The notes under the pieces are model-generated. The model did no database searches. It was not told the origin of the DNA and saw only the letters and a program-made list of their open reading frames with translations. Shown here piece after piece: positions 10,280-62,907 of a stretch of 64,000 nucleotides of DNA. The first letter of the stretch is position 1; each line of letters begins with the position of its first letter. Origin of the DNA: Pararhizobium sp. IMCC21322 (lineage in GTDB: Bacteria > Pseudomonadota > Alphaproteobacteria > Rhizobiales > GCA-2746425). The translations under genes and the position numbers were made by a program. The stretch spans positions 1,402,412 through 1,466,411 of the forward strand of contig NZ_CP132335.1 in NCBI RefSeq assembly GCF_030758295.1, given 5' to 3'.

Positions 10280-10313
10280 CGATTAGGGTAACCTGATTTG
10301 GGGCGATTTGGAG

Positions 10314-10490
10314 CTAGATCACAGAATGGAATTTGTCACATGTGCCGCCCATGATGGCGACCTGTTCTGCCTCACTTAATTGGTTAGCCGAAGAGATGAC
10401 GATGTCCAGCGCCATCAGAAAATCTGCTGCCAAAGTGCAGACCCGCCCGCCGGATTCACTCATCAACCGGTTTGGTCTTGGTGTCGGATG
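10314..10490 (-). pseudogene. Possible C-terminal remnant of an amidohydrolase (sugar lactonase type)
   Basis: On the minus strand an open stretch ending at a TAG (10314-10316) encodes about 58 residues, including ALDIVISSANQLSEAEQ and AIMGGTCDKFHSV. These resemble the very C-terminus of amidohydrolase-2 enzymes such as L-fuconolactonase (helix, S-x-x-E, then a GGTA-x-x-F/Y-like end). A TAA closes the frame at 10491-10493. In a neighbouring frame further upstream RIMIAQSVDFPGK faintly recalls the family's RxMxxSDFP motif, so a frameshifted relic is plausible. A lactonase is the step expected between the aldo-keto reductase and the dehydratase here. The match is short and uncertain. The rest of 10280-10628 holds only this stub and the operator. 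Confidence 0.35.
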
Positions 10491-10558
10491 TTATCGTAAG
10501 TTTGCCAGGGAAATCGACAGATTGCGCAATCATGATGCGGGTTTACCCGCGAGAGAGT

Positions 10559-10580
10559 ACCTACTACCATGGTAGTAGGT
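10559..10580. promoter_or_regulatory. Perfect 22-bp palindromic operator upstream of the GntR gene
   Basis: The 22 bases are a perfect palindrome with core CTACTACCATGGTAGTAG. It ends 48 bases before the GntR start codon. Its central ACTACCATGGTA recurs in the promoter spacer of the transporter operon (5489-5500), and ACTACCATGG recurs at the dehydratase start (13737-13746, minus strand). This is the expected pattern of an autoregulating GntR/FCD repressor. Confidence 0.65.
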
Positions 10581-10628
10581 TAATCTGAACTGTGAGAAGT
10601 GGCCGGGTCGGGGAAGGAGGGCTTCCAG

Positions 10629-11321: not shown

Positions 11322-11340
11322 CTTAGAAGAGAAGACTTTC

Positions 11341-45076: not shown

Positions 45077-48000
45077 TTAATGAAAATTTCGCCCTTTTGG
45101 CAAAACCGCACCGGCGCGTGAAGGGGGGCGGTTTTTGTGACGCATTGTATCGAGATCTTTTTCAAATTTTTCAATTCGGTCAGGGCGCGCGCGTTTTTGC
45201 CTGACATCCTGCTGCGGGTTTTTAACCTCATCTGCATTGGCCAGCGGCTCCAGATGCTCCGTTGCATCAGATATGGCTGACAGAAGATGCGTCAGATCTT
45301 CAAGATGGTTTGCAATCACATGCGTCACGCCCTCTGCCGTTTGAACCTTGCCATGAATGCCGACAAACCGTGCGCCCAGAACAACCGGCCGATATTTTTC
45401 AAAAATTTTCGGCCAGACAATAATATTGGCAACCCCGGTTTCATCCTCGATGGTTTCAAAGATCACGCCTTTGGCCGTGCCCGGTCGCTGGCGCACAAGT
45501 ACCAGTCCGGCAATACGAATGAATGAGTTTGACCGTGCTGTGTTGAGAGCTTCCGTCTGGCGGTAATGCATTTGTCCCAGTGTTTGCCTGACGAAGGACA
45601 CAGGATGCGCCTTCAGCGATAGGGATAGCGAGCGGTAGTCATGGATCACATGCTCGCCCAATGGCATGGTCGGCAGCGCAACATCCGGCTCGTTACGACG
45701 GTCCGTATCTGCCCCGATTGCAAACAGCGGCAGACGCTCTTCACTGGTCAGCGGGTCCAGTGCCTTGGCGGCCCACAGGGCCGTGCGGCGGTCCAGACCA
45801 AGAGAGCGCAGACAATCGGCCTCTGCCAGACGTTCCAGAGTGGATTTTGCAAGGCCGGAGCGAAGCCACAGATCGCGCATACTGTCATAACCACGCCCGC
45901 GATGGGCAACCAGTTGATCCGCATGGTCCTTATGCAGGCCTTTGACCCGGTTAAGGCCAAGGCGAACGGCATGGTTGTTTTGCATCACACCAGCCATATC
46001 CCGGTGTTGCGGTGAAATTCTCTGCGCCTGTGAATCTGCTTCCAGACTTGTGTCCCAGTTTGAATGATTAATGTCGGGAGGGCGCAGTTCCACACCATGT
46101 TCCCTGGCATCGCGCACAAGCTGAGCCGGGGCGTAGAAACCCATGGGTTGCGAGTTCAGGATCGCAGCGCAGAACACATCGGGATAATAGCATTTCAGCC
46201 AGCAGGACACATAGACCAGCAGAGCAAAACTGGCTGCATGGCTTTCGGGAAAACCATAATCGCCAAACCCTTCAATCTGCTTGAAGCAATGTTTGGCAAA
46301 GTCGCGCTCATACCCGTTGGCCACCATGCCCTCCACCATTTTCCGTTCAAAATTGCCGATGGTGCCAACCCGGCGAAACGTGGCCATGGCGCGGCGTAAT
46401 TTATCGGCCTCGGACGGGGTGAAATGGGCGGCGACAATGGCAATATTCATGGCCTGTTCCTGAAACAGCGGAACACCCAGCGTTTTTTTAAGAACCCTTT
46501 CCAGTTCAGCTTTGGGATAGCTGACCTTTTCCTTGCCCTGGCGACGGCGCAAATAGGGGTGCACCATATCCCCCTGAATGGGTCCGGGCCGGACAATGGC
46601 AACCTCAATGACAAGGTCATAATAGGTTCTGGGCTTCAGACGCGGCAGCATCGACATTTGCGCCCGGCTTTCAATCTGAAACACACCCAGCGTATCGGCC
46701 CGGCAGATCATGTCGTAGGTCGCTGTATCTTCCTGCGGCAGGGACGCCAGAGTTTCATGACGTCCATAATGGGTTTTGAGCAGATCAAACGCCTTGCGAA
46801 TGCAGGTCAGCATGCCCAGCGCCAGCACATCGATTTTCAACATGCCGAGACTTTCAAGATCATCCTTGTCCCATTCCACAATGGTACGATCATCCATGGC
46901 GGCATTTTCAATCGGGATCAGCGATGACAGCCGGTCGCGTGTAATGACAAAACCGCCGACATGCTGGGAGAGATGACGCGGAAAGCCGATGATCTGATTG
47001 GCCAGATCAAGCAATTGCTTCAGATGTTTGTCCTGTGGGTCCAAACCGGCCCGCTTGGTCTCCTCATCACTGATGGCGCTTGATCCGCTGCCCCATCTCG
47101 TGCCGGAAATGGCGCTGATGGCATCATCCGACAGGCCAAAAACCTTGCCCACTTCCCGTATGGCCGAGCGCGCGCGATAGGTGATGACCGTGGCTGCCAG
47201 ACCGGCTTTCTCCCGGCCGTATTTTGCGTAGATATACTGGATGACTTCTTCGCGCCGCTCATGCTCGAAATCCACATCAATATCCGGCGGCTCGCCGCGC
47301 TCTTCGGAAATAAAACGTTCAAACAGCAAGTCAACCTTGACGGGGTCAACTTCGGTAATGCGCAGGCAATAGCAAATGCTTGAATTGGCAGCAGAGCCGC
47401 GCCCCTGACATAAAATACCCTGACTGCGGGCAAAGCGCACAATGTCGAAAACTGTCAGAAAATAGGAGGCATAATTCAGCTTTTTGATCAAACCCATCTC
47501 ATGGCGGATAGCAGCCTGCACCTTGGGGGGCACCCCTTCAGGAAAGCGTTCCTTTGCACCGCGTGCGGTCAATTGTTCCAGCGCAATCTGGGAGGGAACC
47601 GGATGCCCGCCAAGCTCTTCAAAAACCGGATCTTCAGGATATTGATAGCGCAATTCATCCAGAGAAAACTGCAACTGTTCAAACACGGCTACAGAAGCGC
47701 TGACAGCCGCTTCATAGCCTTTGAAAAGCTGTGTCATTTCAATGCCGGATTTCAAATGACGCTCGGCATTCGGCTCCAGTGCCTTGCCAATGGTGGCCAG
47801 TGTCTTGCCTTCGCGCACACAGCTTAAAACATCCTGCAAAGGCCGCCTGTCGGGCGCGTGGTAAAGCACGTCGCCAATGGCCAGAAGCGGCAATTTGTAA
47901 GTGCTGGCCATGCGTGACAGACGTTGCAACCGCCTGTCATCATGCGTCCCATAGCTGCGCGACAGGGCAAGATAGACGTTGCGGCCAAACCGGCTTTTCA

Positions 48001-48439
48001 ATTTTGGTAGAAAAGCGCCCGTCTTTTCTGAAAATTGTGCGGGCAGAACAGGAGCCATGATCATCTGTTCTCCCAAATCCAGAAAATCATCAAGCTGCAG
48101 ATAACAGGCAGCTTTCGGCGCACGCCGTTTACCCCGTGTCAGCAATTCACACAGATTGCCCCAGCCCTGCCGGCTTTTCGGCCAGACAAGAATATCCGGT
48201 GTGGCATCGGTGAACACCAGCCGGCATCCAGGTGCAAAGGGCAGCTCTGCCTCCTTGGCGGCCATATGAGCGCGCACCACACCAGCCATGGAATTGCGGT
48301 CGGCAATGGCCAGGCCGGTGAGGTCCAGTTTTTTAGCCTGAAGAACCATTTCCTCGCCATGAGAGGCTCCGCGCAGAAAGGAAAAATTACTGGCTGCGGC
48401 CAGTTCCACATAAGGCAGGGCAAATGGCTGCTGGGTCAC
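45077..48439 (-). CDS. dnaE2: Error-prone DNA polymerase DnaE2
   Basis: A 1120-residue C-family polymerase used in SOS mutagenesis with ImuA and ImuB. The N-terminal PHP domain opens YVELAAASNFSFLRGASHGEEM. The active site lies in RGSAANSSICYCLRITEVDP and PDIDVDFEHERREEVIQYI. The finger and helix-hairpin-helix parts follow (FPESHAASFALLVYVSCWLKCYYP; IAGLVLVRQRPGTAKGVIF is the OB fold). The GTG at 48439, which overlaps the imuB stop (GTGA), is preferred to a TTG eight codons earlier. Translational coupling and the upstream LexA box place it in the damage-induced cassette. Confidence 0.95.
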   Translation of the reverse strand: MTQQPFALPYVELAAASNFSFLRGASHGEEMVLQAKKLDLTGLAIADRNSMAGVVRAHMAAKEAELPFAPGCRLVFTDATPDILVWPKSRQGWGNLCELLTRGKRRAPKAACYLQLDDFLDLGEQMIMAPVLPAQFSEKTGAFLPKLKSRFGRNVYLALSRSYGTHDDRRLQRLSRMASTYKLPLLAIGDVLYHAPDRRPLQDVLSCVREGKTLATIGKALEPNAERHLKSGIEMTQLFKGYEAAVSASVAVFEQLQFSLDELRYQYPEDPVFEELGGHPVPSQIALEQLTARGAKERFPEGVPPKVQAAIRHEMGLIKKLNYASYFLTVFDIVRFARSQGILCQGRGSAANSSICYCLRITEVDPVKVDLLFERFISEERGEPPDIDVDFEHERREEVIQYIYAKYGREKAGLAATVITYRARSAIREVGKVFGLSDDAISAISGTRWGSGSSAISDEETKRAGLDPQDKHLKQLLDLANQIIGFPRHLSQHVGGFVITRDRLSSLIPIENAAMDDRTIVEWDKDDLESLGMLKIDVLALGMLTCIRKAFDLLKTHYGRHETLASLPQEDTATYDMICRADTLGVFQIESRAQMSMLPRLKPRTYYDLVIEVAIVRPGPIQGDMVHPYLRRRQGKEKVSYPKAELERVLKKTLGVPLFQEQAMNIAIVAAHFTPSEADKLRRAMATFRRVGTIGNFERKMVEGMVANGYERDFAKHCFKQIEGFGDYGFPESHAASFALLVYVSCWLKCYYPDVFCAAILNSQPMGFYAPAQLVRDAREHGVELRPPDINHSNWDTSLEADSQAQRISPQHRDMAGVMQNNHAVRLGLNRVKGLHKDHADQLVAHRGRGYDSMRDLWLRSGLAKSTLERLAEADCLRSLGLDRRTALWAAKALDPLTSEERLPLFAIGADTDRRNEPDVALPTMPLGEHVIHDYRSLSLSLKAHPVSFVRQTLGQMHYRQTEALNTARSNSFIRIAGLVLVRQRPGTAKGVIFETIEDETGVANIIVWPKIFEKYRPVVLGARFVGIHGKVQTAEGVTHVIANHLEDLTHLLSAISDATEHLEPLANADEVKNPQQDVRQKRARPDRIEKFEKDLDTMRHKNRPPSRAGAVLPKGRNFH
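45102..45135 (+). terminator. Terminator for the yej/ghrA/kinase transcript, inside the dnaE2 3' end
   Basis: AAAACCGC (45102-45109) pairs with GCGGTTTT (45128-45135) and T residues run to 45136 on the plus strand. It lies about 55 bases after the kinase stop. The region is also the last coding part of convergent dnaE2, so one sequence serves both roles. Confidence 0.45.
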
Positions 48440-50148
48440 GGGAACAGCCCGTGCATATACCAATGCGGGCGCGCGGCTTCCCGCTCGTATAATCCCTGAC
48501 GGAACAGCCAGAACCGCCGCCCTTCACGATCTTCAGTCTTGAAGTAATCCCGCGTCAGCGCCTGACGGCCATCGCGCCACCACTCGCAGGCAATTCGCTC
48601 CGGACCTTCGCTGGCGGCAATCTCATACAGCACTTTGCGCCAGCGGAAGCGTTGCGGCAGGCCTTCGGGTATCTCGGCAATCACATCCACAGGTTCAGGC
48701 TGATTCAACAGCAGAATTGGCCGCGTCAGTTGCGTGTCCAGCTCTTCCATATCCTCAGCATCTGTCAGGGAGAGGGCGGCCTGCGCCCGCATATTTTGAT
48801 GCCTATGTCGGCCCTTCTGATTGGGCCTGCGAATGGACGGTAGCACCCCAAAGCTGCGTTCCGGAATATGGCTGTCATTCATGATGAAATGCTGGACCCG
48901 GTCTGTGCCAAGGCGCGCGCCAAGCCGGTTGATGAGCGCGTTATAGCTGTCTTCCATCGGCACTTTGGCAACAAAATCTGCCTGCTGATCGAGCATGGGC
49001 TCCGATGTGGCAATTTCCAGACGGACCAGATCAAACCCGAAACCGGCTTCCAAAGGGCTGTGCAAACTGACAAGCCGGTCCTGAAACAATTGCTCAATAT
49101 GGGCGGGCTCGCGTTCCGGATTGGCCGTGACAACGCTGAGCATGCGGCGCTCTCCGTCCACCCGGAACAGTTTCAAGACCAGAACCCGTGCGCCAAGCGC
49201 GCGCTTTTCCAGAATAGGTTTCAGATTGCCTGCAAGCGATAAAATGCTGCGGCTGATATCATCCTGCAACGAGATTGGATCAACAAATTGCCGTTCAGAT
49301 GCAAGTTCCGCCACAGCCATGCGCGGTGAAATGGTTTCCTCTTCGCGGCCAAGCGCCTGATCAAGCCTGCGCAGCAACTGCCTGCCAAACCGCAGCGATA
49401 GCGGCCCGCGTGGCAAATCCATGATGCAGCCAACGGTTTTCAACCCGACCTGCTTCAGTTCCTCAACAGTTTTCGGGTCCATGCGCAGAGCCTCAAGGGG
49501 CAGGGGCGCGACATGGTCCCGCTCTGCGCCTTGGGCAGCAATACGACTGTCGTTCACGTTCCCGTAGCGGGCAATACCCCAGGCAGCCCCTGGTGTGGAG
49601 GCAATGGCAATGTTGGTGACAAAACCCTGGGCATTCAGGCTCGAAATCAGATTCAGGCGCAATGCCTCCTCGCCTTTGAACAGATGTGCGCAGCCGGTGA
49701 TGTCCAGCATCAGTCCGGGAAGACCATTGATCGTGTCGATGGACAACAGCGGTGTGTAGCGCTCGCACCAGTCGGCAATGGCTTCCAGAAGCGCAGCATC
49801 AGCCGCCTCATCAGCTTCATGACAGTCCAGCTTTGGCAAAATAGCCCGTGCATCTGTCAGGGTCTGATCTTTATGCAATCCGGCCTGTCTGGCCGTCTGG
49901 TTTAGCGCGGACAGGCGCAAGGCACTTTTAATGGAAGCGATAACGGCAAGGGGCGGGCAGTCAGCCTGCCCGTTCCAGTTTTGTTGGAAGCGCCACGATT
50001 TTCCCCATATCTGACGGCTGATCCGGTCGGTTGGCAGAAAGGGGAAGGCGATGCTGAGGAAGCGTTGCCCTTTGTCCTGATTGGGGCCCAGATTGTGGCC
50101 CTGAGTGTACCCCAGATTGTTCGTGGATGTGATCTTTGTGTCGGACAT
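48436..50148 (-). CDS. imuB: ImuB, DNA polymerase Y-family accessory protein
   Basis: A 570-residue protein related to Y-family polymerases. The start RFLSIAFPFLPTDRISRQIW and the palm region RYTPLLSIDTINGLPGLMLDITGCAHLFKGE are visible. The S-I-D-E acidic motif of active Y polymerases is changed to SID-T, and the N-terminal DxD-like site is absent, so it is non-catalytic, as known for ImuB. It acts as a hub between ImuA, DnaE2 and the sliding clamp. The ATG at 50148 is the best start seen; the frame is open to 50256. Either choice overlaps imuA by more than 100 bases. Confidence 0.88.
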   Translation of the reverse strand: MSDTKITSTNNLGYTQGHNLGPNQDKGQRFLSIAFPFLPTDRISRQIWGKSWRFQQNWNGQADCPPLAVIASIKSALRLSALNQTARQAGLHKDQTLTDARAILPKLDCHEADEAADAALLEAIADWCERYTPLLSIDTINGLPGLMLDITGCAHLFKGEEALRLNLISSLNAQGFVTNIAIASTPGAAWGIARYGNVNDSRIAAQGAERDHVAPLPLEALRMDPKTVEELKQVGLKTVGCIMDLPRGPLSLRFGRQLLRRLDQALGREEETISPRMAVAELASERQFVDPISLQDDISRSILSLAGNLKPILEKRALGARVLVLKLFRVDGERRMLSVVTANPEREPAHIEQLFQDRLVSLHSPLEAGFGFDLVRLEIATSEPMLDQQADFVAKVPMEDSYNALINRLGARLGTDRVQHFIMNDSHIPERSFGVLPSIRRPNQKGRHRHQNMRAQAALSLTDAEDMEELDTQLTRPILLLNQPEPVDVIAEIPEGLPQRFRWRKVLYEIAASEGPERIACEWWRDGRQALTRDYFKTEDREGRRFWLFRQGLYEREAARPHWYMHGLFP

Positions 50149-50941
50149 GGCAAAAGCCTCGAATTTGGTGGTTCCATGTGGCAGAGGCAGCCCCGGTTGC
50201 CCCTTGTCGATTACGCTCCAGATGAGCGGAAAATGCGGTATGACCAATGCCTGCATCGGGCTTCAGGGCACCCTGCATGTCTAACTGGCAGGACAGGCGC
50301 GGCTTGATGCACCAACGCGTTATGGCTGCATTGGCTTCCTCTTCGCTGCTCTGCCGCAGAATGAGAACGCTGGTTCCGCTTTCACTGGCTCGCAGGTTCA
50401 AACGCCGCGTAGCGGTCATATCAAGTGTTCTGGGGTGGCCCTCAACATGCAGAATGACAGCCGCCAGATCGGTGCATTTGGCAGCCTCATCCGCCGCCCA
50501 TAAAGCGTGTTTCACACTGAGTGGCGTGACAATGACAAGGCGGTCAGGATCAAAGCCCAGATTGGCAAGACCCTGCGGGAACAGGCTCATATTGCTGGTA
50601 TCGGCAAAAGGCGCTGATATCCATAAAACCGGTTTCGCCGCGTGTTGGTTCATCCGGCTCAGCAAGGCCATTGCAAACCCTGTCAAAGCCCCCGCATCAC
50701 GGCTGTGCGCGCAGCGTATTTCATGCAGGCTGCCGGGCGGCAGACCGGTGTCAAAAAAGGCTGACAATTCATCTTCTGCAACACTCTGGCTGTTGGGCAG
50801 TAAGCGGCTGGCAGGGATCAGCTGTGCATTCAGCGCAGCGGGTAATCTGGTCCCAACTTTTGTCTGAAAACCGTCCTGAACGCGCATTTGATCCTGCGTA
50901 TGCAAATGATCAATCAACGCTGTTGCCGTTGCGTTACGCAC
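49961..50941 (-). CDS. imuA: ImuA, SOS mutagenesis RecA-like protein
   Basis: A 326-residue protein, first gene of the imuA-imuB-dnaE2 cassette. The conserved core (about 60-235) has SAFFDTGLPPGSLHEIRCAHSRDAGALTGFAMALLSRM, FDPDRLVIVTPLSVKHALWAADEAA and DLAAVILHVEGHPRTLDMTATRRLNLRASESGTSVLILR, a degenerate RecA/SulA-like fold. SAHLERNRQGATG is the usual end of the family. Beyond it 75 extra residues, rich in His, Gln and Pro, read through the start of imuB in another frame and are probably unconserved. A LexA box lies 18 bases before the ATG. Confidence 0.85.
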   Translation of the reverse strand: MRNATATALIDHLHTQDQMRVQDGFQTKVGTRLPAALNAQLIPASRLLPNSQSVAEDELSAFFDTGLPPGSLHEIRCAHSRDAGALTGFAMALLSRMNQHAAKPVLWISAPFADTSNMSLFPQGLANLGFDPDRLVIVTPLSVKHALWAADEAAKCTDLAAVILHVEGHPRTLDMTATRRLNLRASESGTSVLILRQSSEEEANAAITRWCIKPRLSCQLDMQGALKPDAGIGHTAFSAHLERNRQGATGAASATWNHQIRGFCHVRHKDHIHEQSGVHSGPQSGPQSGQRATLPQHRLPLSANRPDQPSDMGKIVALPTKLERAG

Positions 50942-51131: not shown

Positions 51132-51181
51132 TTGACTCATTTCATACGCTTTGATATTTCTTGTAAAATTTTACAAGAAAT
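51132..51181 (+). promoter_or_regulatory. Promoter and 26-bp palindromic operator of the GntR gene at 51204
   Basis: TTGACT (51132-51137) and TATTTC (51155-51160) are separated by 17 bases. A perfect 26-bp palindrome with core TTGTAAAATTTTACAA spans 51156-51181. It overlaps the -10 and the expected transcription start. The layout suits autorepression by the GntR protein encoded immediately downstream. Confidence 0.6.
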
Positions 51182-51203
51182 TTTATTGGGAGGGGACCTG
51201 AAT

Positions 51204-51848
51204 TTGCTTCGCGAAAACGCTTATGCGGCCTTCAAGGAATCACTGTTTGCCGAGCAATTGCATCCCGGACAGTTTCTATCGATTCAGGAATTATGTGATG
51301 GATTGAACGTCTCGATCAGTCCCCTGCGTGATGCTTTACGCCAGCTTGAAAGTGAAGGGCTGGTCGAACTGCTTCCCAAAAAGGGCGTTCGCATCGCCAA
51401 GGTCGACCGGGATTTCATCACCAACGCATTTCAGGTGCGCCGGTTTCTGGAAGTGCAGGCCTGTTATGAACTGGGCGACAATGGCTGGCCGCAATTGCAG
51501 GAAATTCGCGACCGGACAAAAAGCATTGCCGTCAGGGCAGAAACCAATATTGACGAGGCCCTGCTGCACGATGCCTACAAGACCGATTGGGCATTCCATG
51601 ACGGTTTGATAGCAGCCATCGGGAATGATTTGCTGACCCAGATACATGGCCAGAACAGTGACAAGGTCCGCATGGTTCGTCTGAACCGTCGCTTCATTGC
51701 TTCGCGCGTTTTACCGGCCATGCAGGAGCATTTGAAAATACTGGACGCGTTGATTGTGGATGACCGTGCGGCGGCTGCAGCAGCCCTGAATGAGCATCTT
51801 TGCATCTCGGAAGCCAGAGCCCTTGGAAAAGAACCGGGGCTGGTCTGA
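51204..51848 (+). CDS. GntR-family transcriptional regulator (FCD subfamily)
   Basis: A 214-residue regulator. The winged helix is LFAEQLHPGQFLSIQELCDGLNVSISPLRDALRQLESEGLVELLPKKGVRIAKV-like in order (blocks HPGQFLSIQELCDGLNVSIS and PLRDALRQLESEGLVELLPK). The FCD domain has the ligand or metal pattern DWAFHDGLIAAIGNDLL and ends with a conserved His in EHLCIS. The TTG at 51204 has GAGGGG eight bases upstream and follows the 26-bp palindrome; an earlier frame would run through the operator. It is followed by an NMT1-type ABC importer on the same strand, its likely target. Confidence 0.82.
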   Translation: MLRENAYAAFKESLFAEQLHPGQFLSIQELCDGLNVSISPLRDALRQLESEGLVELLPKKGVRIAKVDRDFITNAFQVRRFLEVQACYELGDNGWPQLQEIRDRTKSIAVRAETNIDEALLHDAYKTDWAFHDGLIAAIGNDLLTQIHGQNSDKVRMVRLNRRFIASRVLPAMQEHLKILDALIVDDRAAAAAALNEHLCISEARALGKEPGLV

Positions 51849-51962
51849 CGAACGCACGCCATCCCTAAAATAGCATCTCTGGCCATGAATGCCTTGCCGA
51901 ACAGAAGATCCGGGACGTGGCCAGTACCAATAGACTGACACCCAAATAAAGAGGAGGAAACC

Positions 51963-52994
51963 ATGAATACAATACTTAAATTAATGCGCTTCGCCATGGT
52001 GGCGTTGTTACTGGGCGGAGGAGCCGCAACTGCACAGGATACTCTGAAGCTGAAAATTGCCGCTGCAGGTGGAACACTGCATGCACCAATTTTTGTGGCG
52101 GTGGAGCAGGGCCTGTTTGAAAAGCATGGTCTTGATGCAGAGATTGTGATGTTCCAGACAGGTGTCGAGATGATCAACGGTCTGCTGGCAGGCTCCCATG
52201 ATGTGAACACGATGGGATCAATTCCATTCCTGTCCGGGGCATCAAACGGCTTTCCGCTTGTTTTGATCGGTCACCTTCATGGCGACGCCCTCAAGGATCA
52301 CTATGTTGACAATAACGGTATCGCATCGTCAGCCGGTATCAATTCAATTGAGGATCTGAAGGGAAAACGCATCGGTTTGCCCCGCGGCACTGGCGCGGAA
52401 GGCTATGTGCTGGGCCTGCTTGCCCAACACGGAATGACAGGTGATGATGTCGAGATGATCAACGTTAAGCCACCGGAGCTTCCGACAGCTCTTCTGAACG
52501 GCGATGTAGATGCGGTTTCCGTGTGGGAGCCATGGCTCTCAACAAGTGTTGTCAACGTTGATGGCGCCAAACAGCTCATCGTCGGCCAATGTCAATCCTG
52601 CTATGATCCCGGCACAATTCTGACGTCCAAATCCGTTGTTGAGGGAAAGGCGGAACAGCTTCGCCGCTTCATGCTCGCATTCGCAGAAGCGTCTCAATGG
52701 GTTCGCCAGAATCTCGATGAGGCTGCGGAAGTGAACCTGCGTTGGATCAATCTCAAGGATGCCAGCGTCATGAAAGCTGCCATACGCAACGGTCTGAGTG
52801 ACCCGCGCATGTCCCGCTACACCGTGGATATGTACCGGGAAAAAACCATTCCTGGTCTGAAGGCTGCCGGCAAGCTGCGTGATGAAATCAATCTGGATGA
52901 GGTTGTTGATGCGCAGTTCATCAATTATGCGATGGAAACAGCTCCGCAATTTTTTGATGATCTGAAGCCGATCCCGGATGATCTGAAAAACTAG
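51963..52994 (+). CDS. ABC transporter substrate-binding protein, NMT1/SsuA/TauA-like
   Basis: A 343-residue exported binding protein. The signal peptide of about 24 residues ends ATAQ-DT. The mature start LKLKIAAAGGTLHAPIFVAVEQGLFEKHGLDAEIVMFQTGVEMINGLLAG is the NMT1-like pattern shared by nitrate, sulfonate, taurine and pyrimidine-precursor binding proteins. Further blocks are INSIEDLKGKRIGLPRGTGAEGYVLGLLA and LLNGDVDAVSVWEPW. AGAGGAGG precedes the ATG. CQSCYDPG contains a C-x-x-C pair that is unusual for the family and may form a disulfide. Ligand unknown. Confidence 0.85.
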   Translation: MNTILKLMRFAMVALLLGGGAATAQDTLKLKIAAAGGTLHAPIFVAVEQGLFEKHGLDAEIVMFQTGVEMINGLLAGSHDVNTMGSIPFLSGASNGFPLVLIGHLHGDALKDHYVDNNGIASSAGINSIEDLKGKRIGLPRGTGAEGYVLGLLAQHGMTGDDVEMINVKPPELPTALLNGDVDAVSVWEPWLSTSVVNVDGAKQLIVGQCQSCYDPGTILTSKSVVEGKAEQLRRFMLAFAEASQWVRQNLDEAAEVNLRWINLKDASVMKAAIRNGLSDPRMSRYTVDMYREKTIPGLKAAGKLRDEINLDEVVDAQFINYAMETAPQFFDDLKPIPDDLKN

Positions 52995-53038
52995 CAGATA
53001 AACGGAGCCGTCAAACAGGGCGGCTCCGTTTTTATCTG
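52995..53038 (+). terminator. Long stem-loop with T run between binding-protein and ATPase genes
   Basis: ACGGAGCCG (53002-53010) pairs with CGGCTCCGT (53021-53029), followed by TTTTT. The outer CAGATA/TATCTG arms extend the stem with two unpaired bases. Such a partial terminator inside an ABC operon lowers permease and ATPase expression compared with the binding protein. Confidence 0.7.
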
Positions 53039-53053
53039 CCAGAGCAAAGAAAT

Positions 53054-53845
53054 GTGGTTGTGAACAAAGAACTCCCCAAAATTTCGGTCGACAACGCGTC
53101 CATCGCCTACACCAATCAGGACCTTTCCGAGCCGCATCTGGCGGTCAAGGATGTCACATTGGAGGTGAGTGCAAACGAGTTTCTGGTCGTTGTCGGGCCC
53201 AGTGGTTGCGGAAAATCCTCATTGCTGTCGGCAATCGCCGGATTTCTGACACCGCAGAGCGGCAGCATCAAGCTGAACGGCAAGGACATTGAAGGACCGG
53301 GCGCTGATCGCGGTGTGGTGTTTCAGGATTATGCCCTGCTGCCGTGGAAAACGGTGCTGGACAATGTTGGCCTTGGCCTGAAATTCCGTGGCAAATCCAA
53401 GCCCGAGCGCGATAAAACAGCCCGTGAATATCTGGCCCTGTGTGGCCTTGCAGATGCGGAAGCGAAATACCCCCATCAATTGTCAGGTGGCATGCGCCAG
53501 CGCGCGGCCGTGGCACGCACATTGGCGAATGAGCCGGAAGTGATGTTGATGGATGAGCCGTTTGCAGCCGTGGATGCACAAACCCGCATGACGCTTCAGG
53601 AAGAACTGGTCCGCATCTGGCAACAGACAGAAGTGACCGTCTTTTTTGTAACCCACAGTGTGGAAGAAGCCATCTTTCTCGGTGACCGGGTTATGGTTCT
53701 GTCTTCCGGCCCTGGCGAGATCAAGGCGATGGTGGATATCGATATTGACCGTTCAGAACGAGATATGTCGTCACTGAATTCCAATCCGCGCTTTCAGGCA
53801 TTGCGCGACGAGATCACAAAGCTGGTCAGGCAGGATGCGGCGTGA
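53054..53845 (+). CDS. ABC transporter ATP-binding protein, SsuB/TauB-like
   Basis: A 263-residue ATPase. Walker A is VVGPSGCGKSSLLSAIAGF, the Q-loop is VVFQDYALLPWKTVLDNVGLG, the signature is QLSGGMRQRAAVARTLA, Walker B is EVMLMDEPFAAVDAQTR and the H-loop FFVTHSVEEAIFLGDRV. The order and FQDYALLPWKT are typical of nitrate/sulfonate/taurine ATPases. The start is a GTG with no clear ribosome site; a second GTG two codons later is also possible. The stop overlaps the next ATG (TGATG). Confidence 0.88.
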   Translation: MVVNKELPKISVDNASIAYTNQDLSEPHLAVKDVTLEVSANEFLVVVGPSGCGKSSLLSAIAGFLTPQSGSIKLNGKDIEGPGADRGVVFQDYALLPWKTVLDNVGLGLKFRGKSKPERDKTAREYLALCGLADAEAKYPHQLSGGMRQRAAVARTLANEPEVMLMDEPFAAVDAQTRMTLQEELVRIWQQTEVTVFFVTHSVEEAIFLGDRVMVLSSGPGEIKAMVDIDIDRSERDMSSLNSNPRFQALRDEITKLVRQDAA

Positions 53846-54189
53846 TGGGTTGGATGCGAGTGCTGCTGAAGCCGCCGATCCTGACCACATCCCTGATCCT
53901 GGTCTTTGTGCTGGTCATTGCGTTGCACCGCACCTCACAGCGTGATCTGAAACTGGACGGGTTCCAGACAGAGCCGGGGGGGAAATACGCCATTGTTGCA
54001 AGTCTCGACTTTCAACCGGAAGCATTTCACATGACGCGTCTGCAGCAGACCGGCAGGTTGATGCGGGTAGATGAAACCAACGTGTATCTGCGTGATGTGT
54101 CGACCGGGGACCTGCTGGCACTGGCGAGCAAACCATGGATTTCATCAATCAATTCCTGGGATCCAGAGCAGGGTGACGCAAGTGAGTAG
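53845..54189 (+). CDS. Small membrane-anchored protein of unknown function in an ABC operon
   Basis: A 114-residue protein. One hydrophobic segment (ILTTSLILVFVLVIALH, about residues 12-28) follows a short basic N-terminus. The remaining 85 residues would be periplasmic. They include YAIVASLDFQPEAFHMTRL and RVDETNVYLRDVSTGDLLAL, which look like a small beta-rich domain. I do not recognise the family. Tight overlaps on both sides (TGATG with the ATPase, 8 bases with the permease) show it is translated with the transporter. It may be an accessory subunit of the importer. Confidence 0.6.
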   Translation: MGWMRVLLKPPILTTSLILVFVLVIALHRTSQRDLKLDGFQTEPGGKYAIVASLDFQPEAFHMTRLQQTGRLMRVDETNVYLRDVSTGDLLALASKPWISSINSWDPEQGDASE

Positions 54190-55000
54190 GTCGCCAGCTC
54201 AGGCACGTTTGATAAAGCGTGGGATTAAAGCTTCCAAAGGCGTCGCCGGGATAGCGGCCCTGTTCATCGCCTGGCAGATAGGTGCCAGCGTGTCCGGGGT
54301 CAGTTCCTATTTCTTTCCAGCACCGGTTGATGTCTATCACGCCTTTATGGACATGATGCGCAAAGGCATTCTGGAGGTCTATCTTCTGGACAGCCTTTAC
54401 CGCTATGTGGCCGGTGTCTTTCTTGGCTCCCTTGTGGGAATTGGTGTTGCGCTTGCACTTGGCCTGAACAAGGCCATTGCCGCCGTTTTCGCACCGCTGG
54501 TCGGGTTCTTCTATGCAATTGTGGAATCGGCCTGGCTGCCGGTCTTCGTCATCTGGTTTGGCTATGGCATTACGACCATATTGACGTTGCTGATCTTCGT
54601 GGTCGCATTTCCCATTCTCTACAATGTTCTGGCTGGTATTCAGACCCTGCCAATCGTCTATGTAAATGCGGCGCGCTCACTGGGCGCTACCCGCTGGCAA
54701 ATCCTCAGGGAGGTTATTTTGCCGGGTGTGTTGCCAAGCATTGTAACCGGTTTTCGCATTGGTGCCGGTTTTGCATTCCGTGGCCTCATCATTGCTGAAG
54801 CCATTGCCGCCACATCAGGAATCGGCTTTCTGATTTTCGATGGTGCGGCCAACAAGCAAACCGACAGAACCATTGTCGGCATGATTATCATGGGGCTGTT
54901 GTGGCTGATTATCGAACTGGCCTATCTGCGCCCCTTTGAGCGCGCCACCATTCAAAAATGGGGCTTGGTGACTACAGCCGAGCAGCGTGAGATTCAATGA
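54182..55000 (+). CDS. ABC transporter permease (SsuC/TauC-like), first
   Basis: A 272-residue permease of the BPD_transp_1 family with six membrane segments. YRYVAGVFLGSLVGIGVALALGL and the EAA loop YVNAARSLGATRWQILREVILPGVLPSIVTGFRIGAGFAFRGLIIAEAIAATSGIGFLIFDGA identify it. The GTG at 54182 has AGGGTGA upstream and overlaps the small protein by eight bases; a longer frame is a shadow. The stop overlaps the second permease ATG (ATGA). Confidence 0.87.
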   Translation: MSRSPAQARLIKRGIKASKGVAGIAALFIAWQIGASVSGVSSYFFPAPVDVYHAFMDMMRKGILEVYLLDSLYRYVAGVFLGSLVGIGVALALGLNKAIAAVFAPLVGFFYAIVESAWLPVFVIWFGYGITTILTLLIFVVAFPILYNVLAGIQTLPIVYVNAARSLGATRWQILREVILPGVLPSIVTGFRIGAGFAFRGLIIAEAIAATSGIGFLIFDGAANKQTDRTIVGMIIMGLLWLIIELAYLRPFERATIQKWGLVTTAEQREIQ

Positions 55001-55776
55001 TGAAAACCTTCAAACTCAGGCCATATCTACTCGCTGCAATGCCCTTTATCGGCATCCTGATATTATGGACGGTGCTGCCCTCACTGCTGTCTGTGCCAGC
55101 TTACAAACTGCCATCTCCGCAGCTTGTCTGGACCAAAGCAATCGAACTCACCGGCGATGGATCGCTGTTGGAACATATTCTGGTCAGTCTCTATCGGCTG
55201 GCGCTTGGATTTATCGTGGGAAATCTGCTGGCAGTCCCGATTGGCATTGCCATTGGCGTCAACAGACATGCATCTGATTTCCTGCTGCCCCTGCTGACAT
55301 TTCTGCAATCCATTGCCGGTATTGCCTGGATTCCGCTGGCCGTCTTGTGGTTTGGCATTGGCGATGGCGCAATCATCTTCGTTATTGCCAATATCATCTT
55401 CTTCTCAAATCTCTACAACACGGTGATTGGTGTTGAATCCATCCCGCAAACCTATTACCGCGCTGTTCTCTCACTTGGGGCCAGCCGGTTTGATATTCTG
55501 AAATCCGTCATCATCCCCGGTGCCTTTGTGCAGCTGATCGTTGGCTTTCGCTCATCCATGGCTTTTGGCTGGCGCGCCCTGATCGGAGCAGAACTCATCG
55601 CTGGAACCACGGGGCTTGGCTATATGACCCTTGATGCCGTTCAATGGTATCAGACCGAGACAGTCATATTGGGCATGATTATCGTGGGCGTCATCTGGCT
55701 TGTCATGGACCGCTTCCTGTTCCGCAAACTGGAAACCATGACCGTGCGCCGATGGGGCATCCTTCAAGACAAATAG
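54997..55776 (+). CDS. ABC transporter permease (SsuC/TauC-like), second
   Basis: A 259-residue permease homologous to, but distinct from, the preceding one. It shows YRLALGFIVGNLLAVPIGIAIGV, SIAGIAWIPLAVLWFGIGDGAIIFVIANIIFFSNLYNTVIGV and the EAA loop YRAVLSLGASRFDILKSVIIPGAFVQLIVGFRSSMAFGWRALIGAELIAG. Most SsuABC/TauABC-type importers have a single permease gene and a homodimeric channel. Here two coupled genes imply a heterodimer. It is the last gene of the operon and converges on the cation efflux gene. Confidence 0.87.
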   Translation: MMKTFKLRPYLLAAMPFIGILILWTVLPSLLSVPAYKLPSPQLVWTKAIELTGDGSLLEHILVSLYRLALGFIVGNLLAVPIGIAIGVNRHASDFLLPLLTFLQSIAGIAWIPLAVLWFGIGDGAIIFVIANIIFFSNLYNTVIGVESIPQTYYRAVLSLGASRFDILKSVIIPGAFVQLIVGFRSSMAFGWRALIGAELIAGTTGLGYMTLDAVQWYQTETVILGMIIVGVIWLVMDRFLFRKLETMTVRRWGILQDK

Positions 55777-57838: not shown

Positions 57839-58624
57839 TCACGAGGCCTGAACAGATCGCGAAATTTCATGAACCCGCTCGGTATTGTCAACGGCCAGTG
57901 AACCATCTTGGTTCCAGAGCGAGTTTTCAAAGCCGACGCGGACTTTCCCGCCCAGTCTGACAGCTTCTGTCAGACAGTCTGTCTCTTCGCGCCCGAAGGC
58001 ACACAGCATCCAGTCGAATGTATGGGCGCTAGAGCTGCCCAACAGATCAAGCAGGGACTGTATGTCATCCAGGCGGCTGATGCGCGTGCCCTGATAGTCG
58101 CCCAGAACGAATTGCAGCAAATGATGCGTGCCGGGAATTTTGCCCGCGTCTAAAGCGCCGAGAAACGCCGCGACCTCTTTGGGGGTATAAAGAATGTGCT
58201 GGATCGCAACGTTGGCTTCTGCTGCCCAATGATAAAAATCCCGTGCGGCGGGCCAGGCTTCAGGCGAGGGGGCCATTTCCCTCAGCGCAACAGAAACATG
58301 ATCCGGCTTCAGGGCACGAACAATGGCTATCTGCTCGCCGGTTTCGTAGCGACCGGCAGCTTCCGATGTCACTTGAAGATACATTTCCGGAACAGCAGCC
58401 ATGAGCGCCTCAAGCAATTGCGCATAGCCCGCTGCATCCAGCAGATGCAGTCCCTGTTCGTCCCTGATGTGAAGATGTATCCCGTCTGCACCTGCTTTTT
58501 GGCAGGCAATCGCGGTTTCAACCAGTTCCGACTGCGTCAGGGGAATGGCCGGATGATCCGCTTTGGTTCTGCGCGCACCATTGGGTGCCACCATGATGTT
58601 TGGCAATGGCCGGTGATGGATCAT
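57839..58624 (-). CDS. Beta-keto acid cleavage enzyme (BKACE, DUF849)
   Basis: A 261-residue Zn-dependent enzyme of the DUF849 family, which cleaves a beta-keto acid with acetyl-CoA to give acetoacetate and a new acyl-CoA. Conserved blocks are IMVAPNGARR near the N-terminus, GADGIHLHIRDEQGLHLLD with the metal-binding H-x-H, LQVTSEAAGRY, and VRLGGKVRVGFENSLW near the end with the catalytic acidic residue. The ATG at 58624 gives the family's N-terminus; a GTG 48 bases earlier is possible. It is the last gene of a five-gene minus-strand operon with a tricarboxylate-type transporter. Confidence 0.82.
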   Translation of the reverse strand: MIHHRPLPNIMVAPNGARRTKADHPAIPLTQSELVETAIACQKAGADGIHLHIRDEQGLHLLDAAGYAQLLEALMAAVPEMYLQVTSEAAGRYETGEQIAIVRALKPDHVSVALREMAPSPEAWPAARDFYHWAAEANVAIQHILYTPKEVAAFLGALDAGKIPGTHHLLQFVLGDYQGTRISRLDDIQSLLDLLGSSSAHTFDWMLCAFGREETDCLTEAVRLGGKVRVGFENSLWNQDGSLAVDNTERVHEISRSVQAS

Positions 58625-58794
58625 AGAACGGCAAAACTCCGATGAGGGTTGGGTCCGGAATTTATAAAACACATTTTAAAGTGGCACGCCAATACCGGCC
58701 AACGAACCGCTTGGAGTATGTGAAGTGAGGTTCCAGATTTGTGAAAATTGCTGAGAGATGAGCAGAATGACGCAAGATTTCTGATTTCGCTGCC

Positions 58795-60300
58795 CTAATC
58801 CTCGTCCACCAGCGCAACGTTCCTTGTCTTCCGAACAGACGGCAGAACTGCAGCCACCAATGCAATGGCCGCAACGGCCAGAAGTCCGGCGCTGATTGGC
58901 TCGCGCACAAAGACAGAAACCTCACCGCCCGAGATCAACAAGGCCCGTTGCATATGCCCTTCCATCATCGGCCCCAGAATGAAGCCCAGGATCATGGGGG
59001 CAGCCTCGCATTCCAGCTTCTTCAGCACATATCCAAGAACGCCAAAGGCGGCCATGGTCAGCACTGCGAAAGCAGTGTTGTTGACGCTGAAGACACCCAC
59101 ACAGGCAAACACGATCACAATCGGAAACAGAAATTTATAGGGGATGGACACCAGTTTGACCCACAACCCGACCAGCGGCAGATTAAGAACCAGAAGCATC
59201 AGATTGCCGATCCACATGGAAGCAATAATACCCCAGAACAATTCAGGGTGGTCTGTAATCACGGCAGGGCCAGGCTCAATCCCCTGAATGATAAGAGCGC
59301 TGATCATCAGCGCCATCACCGGATTGGAGGGAATGCCAAGGGTCAACATGGGAATAAAGGAGGTTTGTGCACCGGCATTGTTGGCCGATTCAGGCGCTGC
59401 TACACCCTGAATGGCACCTTTTCCGAATGCGCTGGGATCCTTGGCGATTTTCTTTTCCAGCGCATAGGCCGAAAAGGATGCCAGCAGCGCTCCGCCGCCG
59501 GGCAACACGCCCAGAAAGGAGCCCAGAAACGTGCCTCGCACCATGGGCGCAAAAATGAGTTTCAGATCATCCCGTGTCGGCATCAGACTTGTAATTTTTG
59601 ACACACTAAATTCGCGTTTGGTGGTGTCTTCCAGATTGCGCATGATCTCGCCAAGACCGAAAATGCCCATGGCAATTGCGGCAACGCTCAACCCGTCTGA
59701 TAGTTCAGGAATGTCCAGTGTCATGCGCTGAAGGCCCGTCATTTCATCGGTGCCGATCAGACCCAGCAAAAGACCAAAGACCATCATGCCGATGGCTTTC
59801 AGAACGGAGCCATTGGCAAGCACGACAGAGACAATCAGACCGCAAACCATCAGGGAAAAATATTCGGCAGGGCCAAACTGAAAGGCAAGCTCTGCAAGGG
59901 GCGGTGCGAAGACTCCAATCAGAACCGTGGCCACACATCCGGCAAAGAAAGACCCAATGGCTGCGGTCGCCAGCGCTTTTCCAGCATGTCCGCGCTTCGC
60001 CATTTCGTGGCCATCCAGCGTCGTAACAATGGAAGAGGCTTCTCCCGGCAAATTGATCAGAATGGCTGTCGTCGAGCCACCATATTGTGCGCCGTAGAAA
60101 ATTCCAGCCAGCATGATCATCGAGGACACCGGATCAAGCCCGAAAGTGAAGGGCAGCAATACAGCGATAGCCACTAATGGCCCAAGGCCGGGAAGCACGC
60201 CGATAAGTGTTCCCAGCAAGACGCCGAAAAAGGAGAAGAGCAAATTCTGGCCGGTTAAAACTGTGCTGAAACCGAGGCTGAGATTGTTGATCAGTTCCAT
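58795..60300 (-). CDS. tctA: Tripartite tricarboxylate transporter large permease TctA
   Basis: A 501-residue inner-membrane protein with about twelve membrane segments. TctA marks are GVLLGTLIGVLPGLGPLVAIAVLLPFTFGLDP, FYGAQYGGSTTAILINLPGEASSIVTTLDG, FGKGAIQGVAAPESANNAGAQTSFIPMLTLGIPSNPVMALMISALIIQGI and LGFILGPMMEGHMQRALLIS. It is energised by the ion gradient and moves a carboxylate delivered by TctC. It starts 11 bases after tctB in the same operon. Confidence 0.94.
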   Translation of the reverse strand: MELINNLSLGFSTVLTGQNLLFSFFGVLLGTLIGVLPGLGPLVAIAVLLPFTFGLDPVSSMIMLAGIFYGAQYGGSTTAILINLPGEASSIVTTLDGHEMAKRGHAGKALATAAIGSFFAGCVATVLIGVFAPPLAELAFQFGPAEYFSLMVCGLIVSVVLANGSVLKAIGMMVFGLLLGLIGTDEMTGLQRMTLDIPELSDGLSVAAIAMGIFGLGEIMRNLEDTTKREFSVSKITSLMPTRDDLKLIFAPMVRGTFLGSFLGVLPGGGALLASFSAYALEKKIAKDPSAFGKGAIQGVAAPESANNAGAQTSFIPMLTLGIPSNPVMALMISALIIQGIEPGPAVITDHPELFWGIIASMWIGNLMLLVLNLPLVGLWVKLVSIPYKFLFPIVIVFACVGVFSVNNTAFAVLTMAAFGVLGYVLKKLECEAAPMILGFILGPMMEGHMQRALLISGGEVSVFVREPISAGLLAVAAIALVAAVLPSVRKTRNVALVDED

Positions 60301-60310
60301 ACCACGCCTC

Positions 60311-60754
60311 TCAAAACGACCAGAGGGCGACAGGTAAATTCAAGGCACCGATGAACAGAAGCGCGCTGAAAAAGGCGAGACCCGCTGCTGCCAGAATGCG
60401 GTGAACCCAGCCATAATTGGCTCGGGCAAAGCTGGCAACAATGGCAGTGACAAACACCGACGGCACCAGACCAAAGCGCTCAATACACAACGCAAAAACG
60501 ACGACTGCGCAGGTAATCAACAAGAAGGGCCGGATCGCAATTGCCGAAATTGGGTCGGCTTCACGCAACCAAACACCAAGCGCCACTGCAATGCCAATCA
60601 GAATCAGAAGCGTGGACAGGATAATCGGAAAAAAGCCGGGGCCAGGCTCTGCAGTGGACCCAAATTCAAAGCTGGATGTCAGGACCAGACCCGTGATGCC
60701 AGCCAGGGCAAACAGCAAACCCGATCCAAAATCCTTGTCAGTCAATAACTTCAC
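60311..60754 (-). CDS. tctB: Tripartite tricarboxylate transporter small permease TctB
   Basis: A 147-residue protein with four membrane segments. SGLLFALAGITGLVLTSSFEFGSTAEPGPGFFPIILSTLLILIG carries the TctB glycine-proline motif G-P-G-F-F-P. The start is the GTG at 60754 with GAGGGG six bases upstream; a longer frame begins without a ribosome site. It lies between tctC and tctA in the standard order C-B-A. Confidence 0.88.
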   Translation of the reverse strand: MKLLTDKDFGSGLLFALAGITGLVLTSSFEFGSTAEPGPGFFPIILSTLLILIGIAVALGVWLREADPISAIAIRPFLLITCAVVVFALCIERFGLVPSVFVTAIVASFARANYGWVHRILAAAGLAFFSALLFIGALNLPVALWSF

Positions 60755-60835
60755 CGCGAGCCCCTCAGTTTTGGTGAAAGACACCAAAGGCCTGCACAAA
60801 CTATGAACAGGCCTTTGTCTTATTATACAGCTTGG

Positions 60836-61840
60836 CTACTTGGACAGAATACCCTTCCAACTGGCAAGCTCAGCATCAATTACGCTGGCGAATTCTTCCG
60901 GTGTGCCAGCGATCAGTTCCAGCCCGGCCTTTGCAAGTGCCTGCTGGAAAGCCTCTGTCTTGGTCTGGCGGACGACTTCCGCATTCAGCTTGGCAATGAT
61001 GTCCGAAGGAACCCCCGATGGTGTAATAAAGCCAAACCAGGATTTGAATTCATAGCCGGGAACACCAAGTTCCGCGATTGGTTTCAACTCCGGCGCGCCT
61101 GGATTGGGTGTCAGACCGGTGATGCCCAATGCGGTCAACTTGCCATCCCGGACAAATTGCATGCCTTGTGCAGCAGACACAAATACGGTGGAGACGCGCC
61201 CTGCGACAACATCCAGAACACCAAGATTGAGCTTCTTGTAAGGAACGGCTTTCATGCTCACGCCGGTTTTGGTCTGGAACAGTTCCGATGCCAGATTGGC
61301 AGCGCTGCCAAGGCCCGCTGTTGCAAATGTCAGCTTGTCGGGATTGGCTTTGGCATAATCGATGAATTCCTGAACGCTCGAAATGCCAAGGTCATTGTTC
61401 ACATAATGCACCATGGACGCACCCGCGACCCGGATCACCGGATCAAAATCCGCCTGCACATCATATTTGATTTTGTAAAGATAGGGGTGCGTGGTGAGGT
61501 TCGCTGGAACAAAACCAAGCGTGTAGCCATCAGCCTCTGCTTCCGCAATCTTGGCAGCCCCGATAGAGCCGCCAGCACCGCCAATATTCTTGACGATGAC
61601 CTGCTGGCCCCAATTCTCGGTCATGCCATCACCAACGAGGCGCGCCAGAATATCAACCAGGCTGCCAGGGCCTGTTGGCACAATAATGTTGATGGGCTTT
61701 TCCGGATAGGATTGAGCCGCTGCAGGCGTTGGCATGGCTGTCAGCGACAAACCAATCGCGCCAATGGCCAAACCACCAAATTTCAGGCCACCAAATGTCA
61801 GAGCACCAAAGGCGCGTCTGCTCAGTTTCAAAAATGTCAT
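60836..61840 (-). CDS. tctC: Tripartite tricarboxylate transporter substrate-binding protein TctC (Bug family)
   Basis: A 334-residue periplasmic binding protein. The N-terminus has SRRAFGALTF, a possible twin-arginine signal, followed by a long hydrophobic stretch ending AAAQ. The mature protein has the Bug motifs INIIVPTGPGSLVDILARLV, VIVKNIGGAGGSIGAAKIAEAEADGYTLGFV and MKAVPYKKLNLGVLDVVAGRV. Bug proteins bind carboxylates such as citrate or dicarboxylates by two water molecules. The ATG at 61840 has GGGAGGA upstream. The substrate here is likely the acid used by the linked BKACE. Confidence 0.9.
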   Translation of the reverse strand: MTFLKLSRRAFGALTFGGLKFGGLAIGAIGLSLTAMPTPAAAQSYPEKPINIIVPTGPGSLVDILARLVGDGMTENWGQQVIVKNIGGAGGSIGAAKIAEAEADGYTLGFVPANLTTHPYLYKIKYDVQADFDPVIRVAGASMVHYVNNDLGISSVQEFIDYAKANPDKLTFATAGLGSAANLASELFQTKTGVSMKAVPYKKLNLGVLDVVAGRVSTVFVSAAQGMQFVRDGKLTALGITGLTPNPGAPELKPIAELGVPGYEFKSWFGFITPSGVPSDIIAKLNAEVVRQTKTEAFQQALAKAGLELIAGTPEEFASVIDAELASWKGILSK

Positions 61841-61878
61841 GGCAATTTCCTCCCGTTTTACCAATTATCTGTTCTGTT

Positions 61879-62907
61879 CTAGAAATATGTAAGTGTCTCG
61901 ATACCCTTGCCCGCGGCCACACAGGCCACTGCCTTCTGGCTGGCCAGATGAACCCGCGTAAACAGACCGCAATCATGATTTGAGATCAGCGTGTGCTCAC
62001 CGTCCGGATCAAAGGCAATGCCTTGTGGGCCCTTGGCGATTGGCAGCAAGACGTGATCTTCCGGGTCCTGCGCATCATGGATATGCATGACACCGGAGAC
62101 GTAATTTGTGCTCACAAGATATTTGCCGTCAGGCGAGAAACGCAACCGGATCAACCGGCTTGTTTTGGGGCTGCTGAGGACAGCGCCCTTCAATGCAATC
62201 ACCCGAATGATCTTATTGGTCGCTATGTCGATTTCCAGCAGATCCTGCTTGCTGTTTTCCGCCGCATAAAGCCGGTCGCCGCCGGGTGAAATCGAGATGC
62301 CCTCGGTCCCCTTTGGCACCTGAATTTCCGCTACGACCTGCCGTGATGCGATATCAAAAACCAGAATATTGCCAAGCTTGCATGAGACATAGATGCGCTT
62401 GCCGTCCGGTGTGATTTCAATGAAGGGAGCACGCTTTCCTGCCGCGCCAATGACGCAGGTCTCAACCAACTCCATGGAGCCGGTATCAATCCGTCCCAGT
62501 TCACCGGTCTCTTCAAAGATCACCCAAAGATCGCCATTTGCATCAAAGCGCATGGCGTGTGGCCCTTTGAATTCTGATGTGGAAATGCGGTGCATAATGG
62601 ATTGTTCTTCCAGATCGACCACGCTGATATGCGCGCCGGACTCGATGAAATTTCCGGCGAAAAACTTGCCGAGTTCCGAGACGAAGGCAAATTTATGATC
62701 TGGCGTGACAGCCAGCTCATGGTGGTTTTTCTTGGGAATTATTTTTTGTGTCTCAAGGCTGACAGGGTCAAAAAACAAGATGGCGTCGCCAACCTTATCG
62801 ATACCGATAAGACCGTTACGCCCGGTTGGATTGTTCACGGCTCCAAGATTTGAAACGCCAGACGGGCTTTCTTGTGGCGTGCCGTCCTGTTGTGTCGCGA
62901 TTGCCAT
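61879..62907 (-). CDS. YVTN/NHL-type beta-propeller protein, possibly lactonase-like
   Basis: A 342-residue protein of repeated blades. Repeats are visible as KNHHELAVTPDHKFAFVSELG, FKGPHAMRFDANGDLWVIFEETGELG, APFIEITPDGKRIYVSCKLGNILVFD, GTEGISISPGGDRLYAAENSKQ, LIRLRFSPDGKYLVSTNYVSGVM and GPQGIAFDPDGEHTLISNHDCG. No signal peptide is seen, so it is probably cytoplasmic. It is the first gene of the operon with tctC-tctB-tctA-BKACE and is divergent from the LysR gene. It may be a lactonase or a scaffold; no catalytic residues could be assigned. Confidence 0.7.
   Translation of the reverse strand: MAIATQQDGTPQESPSGVSNLGAVNNPTGRNGLIGIDKVGDAILFFDPVSLETQKIIPKKNHHELAVTPDHKFAFVSELGKFFAGNFIESGAHISVVDLEEQSIMHRISTSEFKGPHAMRFDANGDLWVIFEETGELGRIDTGSMELVETCVIGAAGKRAPFIEITPDGKRIYVSCKLGNILVFDIASRQVVAEIQVPKGTEGISISPGGDRLYAAENSKQDLLEIDIATNKIIRVIALKGAVLSSPKTSRLIRLRFSPDGKYLVSTNYVSGVMHIHDAQDPEDHVLLPIAKGPQGIAFDPDGEHTLISNHDCGLFTRVHLASQKAVACVAAGKGIETLTYF

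Follow-up and report, generated by a model that had tools for sequence, protein, structure and literature searches.

The 64,000-nucleotide window analysed here, taken from Pararhizobium sp. IMCC21322 (NZ_CP132335.1, positions 1,402,412 to 1,466,411), carries on its plus strand (51204-55776) a six-gene set for an ATP-binding cassette (ABC) importer that includes a small membrane-anchored protein, named SML, the main subject of this report. The set opens with a GntR/FCD transcriptional regulator (51204-51848; PF00392 6e-14, PF07729 5e-16), followed by an NMT1/SsuA-family substrate-binding protein (SBP) with a signal peptide (51963-52994; PF09084 5.5e-27, TIGR01728) and a TauB/NrtD-like ABC ATPase (53054-53845; PF00005 3.7e-33, PRK11248 260 bits). 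SML (53845-54189) is 114 residues long and, according to AlphaFold2 modelling and conservation, consists of a transmembrane (TM) helix at residues 10-36 and a domain of ferredoxin-like topology at residues 47-104. Two permease genes complete the set: TauC-like permease 1 (PER1, 54182-55000; PF00528 7.8e-24), whose GTG start overlaps the SML stop, and TauC/SaoP-like permease 2 (PER2, 54997-55776; PF00528 1.8e-20), which is 35% identical to PER1. Open reading frames (ORFs) and family searches bear out the gene products listed in an initial annotation of this DNA, including the 114-residue membrane-anchored protein and the two different permeases. Its description of these transporter genes as all overlapped or closely spaced holds for the ATPase, SML, PER1 and PER2 genes, which overlap successively by 1, 8 and 4 bases, but not for the SBP gene, which ends 59 bp before the ATPase gene, with a hairpin in the gap.

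On comparative evidence, SML can be regarded as a real and conserved gene. The sister species encodes a protein with 75% amino acid identity, and the nonsynonymous divergence of the window-sister pair (pN 0.14), set against the synonymous one (pS 0.645), indicates purifying selection. A single-sequence scan of the genome contigs with the window SML gave no confirmed relatives, and a profile was built once whole-genome neighbour searches had yielded an alignment. Matches to this profile come from Bradyrhizobium, Afipia, Bosea, Methylobacterium, Burkholderiales, Geminicoccaceae, Nocardioides, Phytoactinopolyspora and one Rokuibacteriota metagenome-assembled genome, and thus from the phyla Pseudomonadota, Actinomycetota and Rokuibacteriota. 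Homologues in relatives share 25-37% identity, and each lies between or beside the same transporter genes. In a census, SML lies within an SBP/ATPase/two-permease cassette at all 95 loci; 92 are complete SBP/ATPase/two-permease cassettes, and the three incomplete ones each lie at a contig end. The commonest gene order is permease-permease-ATPase-SML-SBP, while the window clade has SBP-ATPase-SML-permease-permease, Actinomycetota have SBP-permease-permease-ATPase-SML, and the f153 and G036 genomes have SBP-ATPase-permease-permease-SML. With four gene orders, SML evidently moves with the whole set and is not tied to one accidental slot. Because this census was seeded by SML matches, a reciprocal test from PER1 was needed; its criterion (E<=1e-40) was fixed in advance, and no more than six candidates were scored in each genome. 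In one class sample of 385 genomes, SML and PER1 pick the identical 11 (G000, G039, G254, G299, G328, G356, G404, G487, G493, G511 and G570).

In the permease tree, which includes a small outgroup sample of nine permeases from SML-free systems, all SML-linked permeases fall on one side of one branch (support 95/95). PER1 paralogues from every SML clade make up one monophyletic group (99/97), which places the PER1/PER2 split before the divergence of these clades; the tree does not decide whether PER2 is monophyletic. The ATPase tree agrees on one SML group with weaker support (88/91). Possession of two permeases was rejected as the distinguishing feature, since SML-free two-permease sets also occur: one NMT1-type set lies in the window genome itself (L180), and others are found on Bradyrhizobium guangxiense p53363 and on Phyllobacterium plasmids, the latter accompanied by an LLM monooxygenase. 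The Bradyrhizobium and Phyllobacterium cassettes resemble the window system in their SBP, ATPase and two TauC-like permeases but lack SML, and the SML group excludes their permease pairs, which stem from separate duplications of their own. The earlier claim of a distinct layout therefore stands for the conserved small protein tied to one permease pair, and falls for the two permeases as such. The distinctive feature is SML, whose distribution follows a single, ancient heterodimeric pair of permeases.

The predicted structure of SML is well defined. AlphaFold2, supplied with 54 sequences, gave a model with a predicted local distance difference test score (pLDDT) of 90.8, in which the helix at 10-36 is followed by a strand (47-54), a helix (60-69), two strands (71-76 and 79-86), a helix (87-94) and a final strand (99-104), a beta-alpha-beta-beta-alpha-beta topology for the domain. 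Net charge is +2.35 on the N-terminal side of the TM helix and -0.24 after it, the N-terminal side being positive in 51 of the 54 members. This bias points to an N-terminus inside the cell, so the domain should lie in the periplasm. Five residues are invariant across the 54-row alignment (E59, F61, H62, G70 and W98), and the conserved E59, F61 and, mostly, H62 mark the start of the first domain helix. Outside the set to which this invariance applies, the Agrobacterium SML has N at the position of H62 and the Sinorhizobium SML lacks the motif. None of the 54 members matches a Pfam or NCBIfam family at E<=0.01, a sequence search of the PDB with the SML profile returned nothing credible, and Foldseek of the model against the PDB found no significant relative (best E 0.11). 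Generic ferredoxin-like Foldseek matches, such as protease prodomains, were set aside as evidence of function at this level.

Importers of the TauC/SsuC type are usually described as an SBP with one permease and one ATPase. The window importer can be assigned to the NitT/TauT class (SsuA family), since its SBP scores just above the cutoff of TIGR01728 SsuA_fam (167.0 against 163.5 bits) and far above that of PF09084 (95.5 against 20.5 bits), and its nearest solved structures are nitrate and alkanesulfonate binding proteins. The permeases reach 84.8 and 73.9 bits with PF00528 and the ATPase 115.4 bits with PF00005; the best NCBIfam matches of these three proteins are TauB, SaoA, NtrCD, TauC and SaoP. 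Identity with TauABC or SsuABC at the equivalog level was rejected, as every cutoff was missed (TauB PRK11248, ATPase 260.5 of 357; TauC, permeases 138.8 and 131.8 of 342; TauA, SBP 62.2 of 304; SsuC, permeases 95.6 and 107.2 of 347) and two permeases plus SML stand in place of one permease. In TauABC, TauC forms the transmembrane domain and TauB is the ATPase (PMC6906117). The window system is like TauABC and SsuABC in its SsuA_fam SBP, TauB-like ATPase and TauC-like permeases, but differs in its two diverged permease genes, its extra TM-anchored subunit and the lack of a TauD/SsuD-type enzyme in the operon. It contains all that defines an SML-type five-gene importer, namely SML, SBP, ATPase and two permeases, with PER1 in the PER1 clade. 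The importer is thus of a known kind, and its new part would be SML as a conserved fifth subunit. The initial annotation took a characterised transporter with this layout as a refutation of its reading; no such case was found in the literature searched, nor any publication on SML, most subscription journals lying outside that scope. In RefSeq-derived and annotated plasmid records, the SML gene appears as "hypothetical protein".

From gene content, conservation, co-occurrence, trees and predicted fold we infer, with moderate confidence for the proposal as a whole, a five-component importer of the NitT/TauT class in which SML is a dedicated fifth subunit, together with its contacts, position, role, cargo and regulation. 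In this proposal, the SBP would hand its cargo over to PER1 and PER2, paired as a heterodimer and powered by two copies of the ATPase. SML would be inserted with its N-terminus inside and its helix packed against the permease pair, so that the beta-alpha-beta-beta-alpha-beta domain, on the periplasmic face, would most likely dock or gate the SBP or stabilise the asymmetric permease dimer. In the window clade, the cargo would probably be a sulfate ester or an organosulfur anion of a related kind that loses its sulfate in the cytosol, and the GntR/FCD protein probably controls the operon through a palindrome before its own gene. More tentatively, and with somewhat less than an even chance, SML may be an integral fifth subunit of a class not recognised before in type I ABC importers, in which a single-copy TM-anchored ferredoxin-like domain breaks the symmetry of the heterodimer and controls SBP docking in at least three phyla. 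If SML is a conserved extra subunit of one heterodimeric branch, a widespread importer type has been incompletely annotated and its SML gene overlooked as a hypothetical protein. SML would then make it testable why some importers of the TauC/SsuC class use two different permeases, and its gene would be a marker by which to find and classify these importers.

Two results count against the fifth-subunit proposal: SML is the quicker of the two to change when compared with the ATPase (75% and 94% identical, respectively, to the sister-species proteins), and the branch that unites the SML-linked ATPases has support under the starred level. The faster evolution of SML relative to its neighbours, like its failure to match any family, might suggest a spurious or decaying ORF caught between two genuine genes. 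Purifying selection, 54 diverse members, a confident predicted fold, four gene orders and co-occurrence in 11 of 11 genomes leave that explanation with a negligible probability, and lack of conservation of the small ORF, named in the initial annotation as fatal to its reading, is contradicted by this selection and by the same cassette in three phyla. A more serious, though still unlikely, explanation is that SML acts outside the transport cycle as an assembly or stability factor, akin to small proteins that guard a transporter from proteolysis; a protein with one TM helix and a small soluble domain could do so. There is precedent for transporters being stabilised by small membrane proteins, as with MgtS and MgtA (PMC10710835). 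However, AcrZ and MgtS are single-helix proteins of about 50 residues or less that act on transporters without a folded domain, and the regulators described there are shorter than 50 residues (PMC10710835), whereas SML has a folded domain of about 60 residues, predicted to be periplasmic, with near-invariant residues in its PE-x-F motif and strict operon linkage. Its strict tie to one permease type fits a working subunit as well as or better than an assembly factor.

Improbable, and more so than the assembly factor, is a role for SML in binding or sensing periplasmic substrate as an auxiliary receptor or transport regulator. The predicted periplasmic domain of ferredoxin-like topology, whose first helix opens with the conserved residues E59, F61 and, in most members, H62, could accommodate such a role, but H62 is replaced by Asn in Agrobacterium, the motif is lost in Sinorhizobium, catabolic neighbours differ between SML clades, and Foldseek gave no significant fold match to a ligand-binding domain. 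For the preferred fifth-subunit proposal, a parallel in kind, not in sequence, is LucB, a small membrane protein that is an extra subunit of the mycobacterial Mce1 importer and is confined to hetero-oligomeric MCE systems (PMC9882608). LucB has at least four TM helices and is encoded by a paralogue-free gene outside the mce operon, whereas SML has one TM helix and is operon-linked; an assignment of SML to the LucB type (Rv2536-related, multi-TM) was rejected on its one TM helix and lack of a Pfam match.

The initial annotation gave the substrate as unknown, and sulfatases adjacent to the cassette in relatives narrow it, for the window clade, to a sulfate ester or similar organosulfur anion, a proposal whose chances are about evenly balanced. 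This clade (the window, L020, L022, L132 and L183) is strongly supported in the permease and ATPase trees, and three of its four independent lineages (L022, L132 and L183) have a sulfatase gene within 1.6 kb. At L022, GntR, sulfatase, SBP, ATPase, SML and both permeases follow one another in one direction; at L132, a divergent sulfatase directly adjoins the cassette; on Agrobacterium pA, a divergent sulfatase lies about 1.6 kb off, and after it come genes for a formylglycine-generating enzyme and an alpha/beta hydrolase. The L022 and L132 sulfatases resemble choline sulfatase but, at about 285-295 bits, fall under the 433 bits required for that equivalog. Two sulfatases of the window genome that are close to that of L022 adjoin siblings of the window GntR (L146 and L147). 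The sulfate-ester proposal is favoured because sulfatases recur near window-clade cassettes, beside these GntR siblings and in L179 of the window genome, and it would point to a sulfatase-rich alphaproteobacterium that takes up sulfated compounds.

Several observations detract from this assignment. No sulfatase is adjacent at the window or sister-species loci, and in the window genome the closest relative of the L022 sulfatase (55%) is over 2 Mb distant. The Agrobacterium sulfatase belongs to another subfamily (27% identity to that of L022), so that the link recurs without being one conserved gene, and two genes, a LysR gene and a small one, separate this sulfatase from the transporter. Other SML clades adjoin genes for SDR, Cupin_7, iron-containing alcohol dehydrogenase (Fe-ADH), RraA-like, GntR/FCD and IclR proteins. 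That the cargo is some other organic anion, and the sulfatases are coincidental in a sulfatase-rich lineage, is only slightly short of an even chance. The window genome gives 41 tblastn sulfatase matches (several per gene), apparently many for an alphaproteobacterium, which makes adjacency easier, and the nearest catabolic neighbour of its sulfatase-free operon encodes a beta-keto acid cleavage enzyme (BKACE) and adjoins an apparent tripartite tricarboxylate importer. Against coincidence stand three unrelated lineages, two sulfatase subfamilies and the formylglycine-generating enzyme, as well as the finding that the other SML loci scanned have no sulfatase match at E<=1e-3. No neighbouring gene was seen that would speak for thiamine precursors, pyrimidines or nitriles as the cargo.

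The sulfatase-bearing loci of the window genome have features of their own. L146 (G000:C1:4398000-4414500, 6961-12123) combines the GntR sibling and sulfatase with apparent TctC/TctA/TctB importer genes, and L147 (G000:C1:94000-110500, 4932-12252) again shows a module of GntR, sulfatase and apparent tripartite tricarboxylate importer. L179 (G000:C1:3759000-3773000, 4829-9741) is a one-permease Tau-like importer with the sulfatase between SBP and permease and GntR upstream. With its adjoining GntR gene, NMT1-like SBP, TauC-like permease, ATPase and cytosolic-type sulfatase inside the operon, it resembles the SML system of this clade, but it has one permease and no SML. AtsRBC of Pseudomonas couples ABC import of sulfate esters to sulfatases, and is set beside the proposed cargo by description and not by sequence; we know of no SML in AtsRBC.

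Different catabolic neighbours among the SML clades imply that the cargo differs between them, and the catabolic genes beside main-clade cassettes (SDR, Cupin_7, Fe-ADH, RraA) were dropped as a cargo clue for the window, which belongs to a separate clade. Two tested Fe-ADHs from other SML clades score above the 4-hydroxybutyrate dehydrogenase cutoff. In the main clade, the cassettes at L082, L061 and L090 have Cupin_7, SDR and an Fe-ADH above that cutoff on their flanks, which suggests a catabolic pathway common to these loci. At L128 (G570:C2:909000-922000, 11-7181), a diverged SML cassette lies between genes that by eye appear to encode a large dehydrogenase subunit and formyltetrahydrofolate deformylase, which hints at a different, methylated cargo.

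The start of the GntR/FCD gene, inferred from the position of a Shine-Dalgarno-like GGGAGGGG at 51188 and from conservation, is likely TTG 51204. It is preferred to the 51132 of the initial annotation, which would include an operator-like palindrome within the gene. This perfect palindrome (51157-51182; core TTCTTGTAAAATTTTACAAGAA, 51158-51179) lies about 22 bases before the likely start, occurs once in the window at up to 3 mismatches (shuffles expect 0), and is retained in the sister species with one core change. It is probably an operator of the GntR/FCD protein, whose score against phnR_burk TIGR03338 falls under the cutoff. The description of the operon as GntR-controlled draws its support from this palindrome and from the adjacency of the regulator gene. 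The hairpin between the SBP and ATPase genes (52994-53039, plus strand), its arms read in the sequence, keeps its stem in the sister species (G002; L011/L020) with changes on both arms. It is absent from the output of a terminator scan with a loop limit of 8, and is possibly an mRNA stabiliser or attenuator.

Elsewhere in the window, the BKACE gene and the apparent tripartite tricarboxylate importer genes near it (57839-62907) possibly form a separate catabolic cluster. Three consecutive minus-strand ORFs (45077-50941), immediately upstream of the operon and oriented opposite to it, look by eye like an ImuA-ImuB-DnaE2 mutagenesis cassette.

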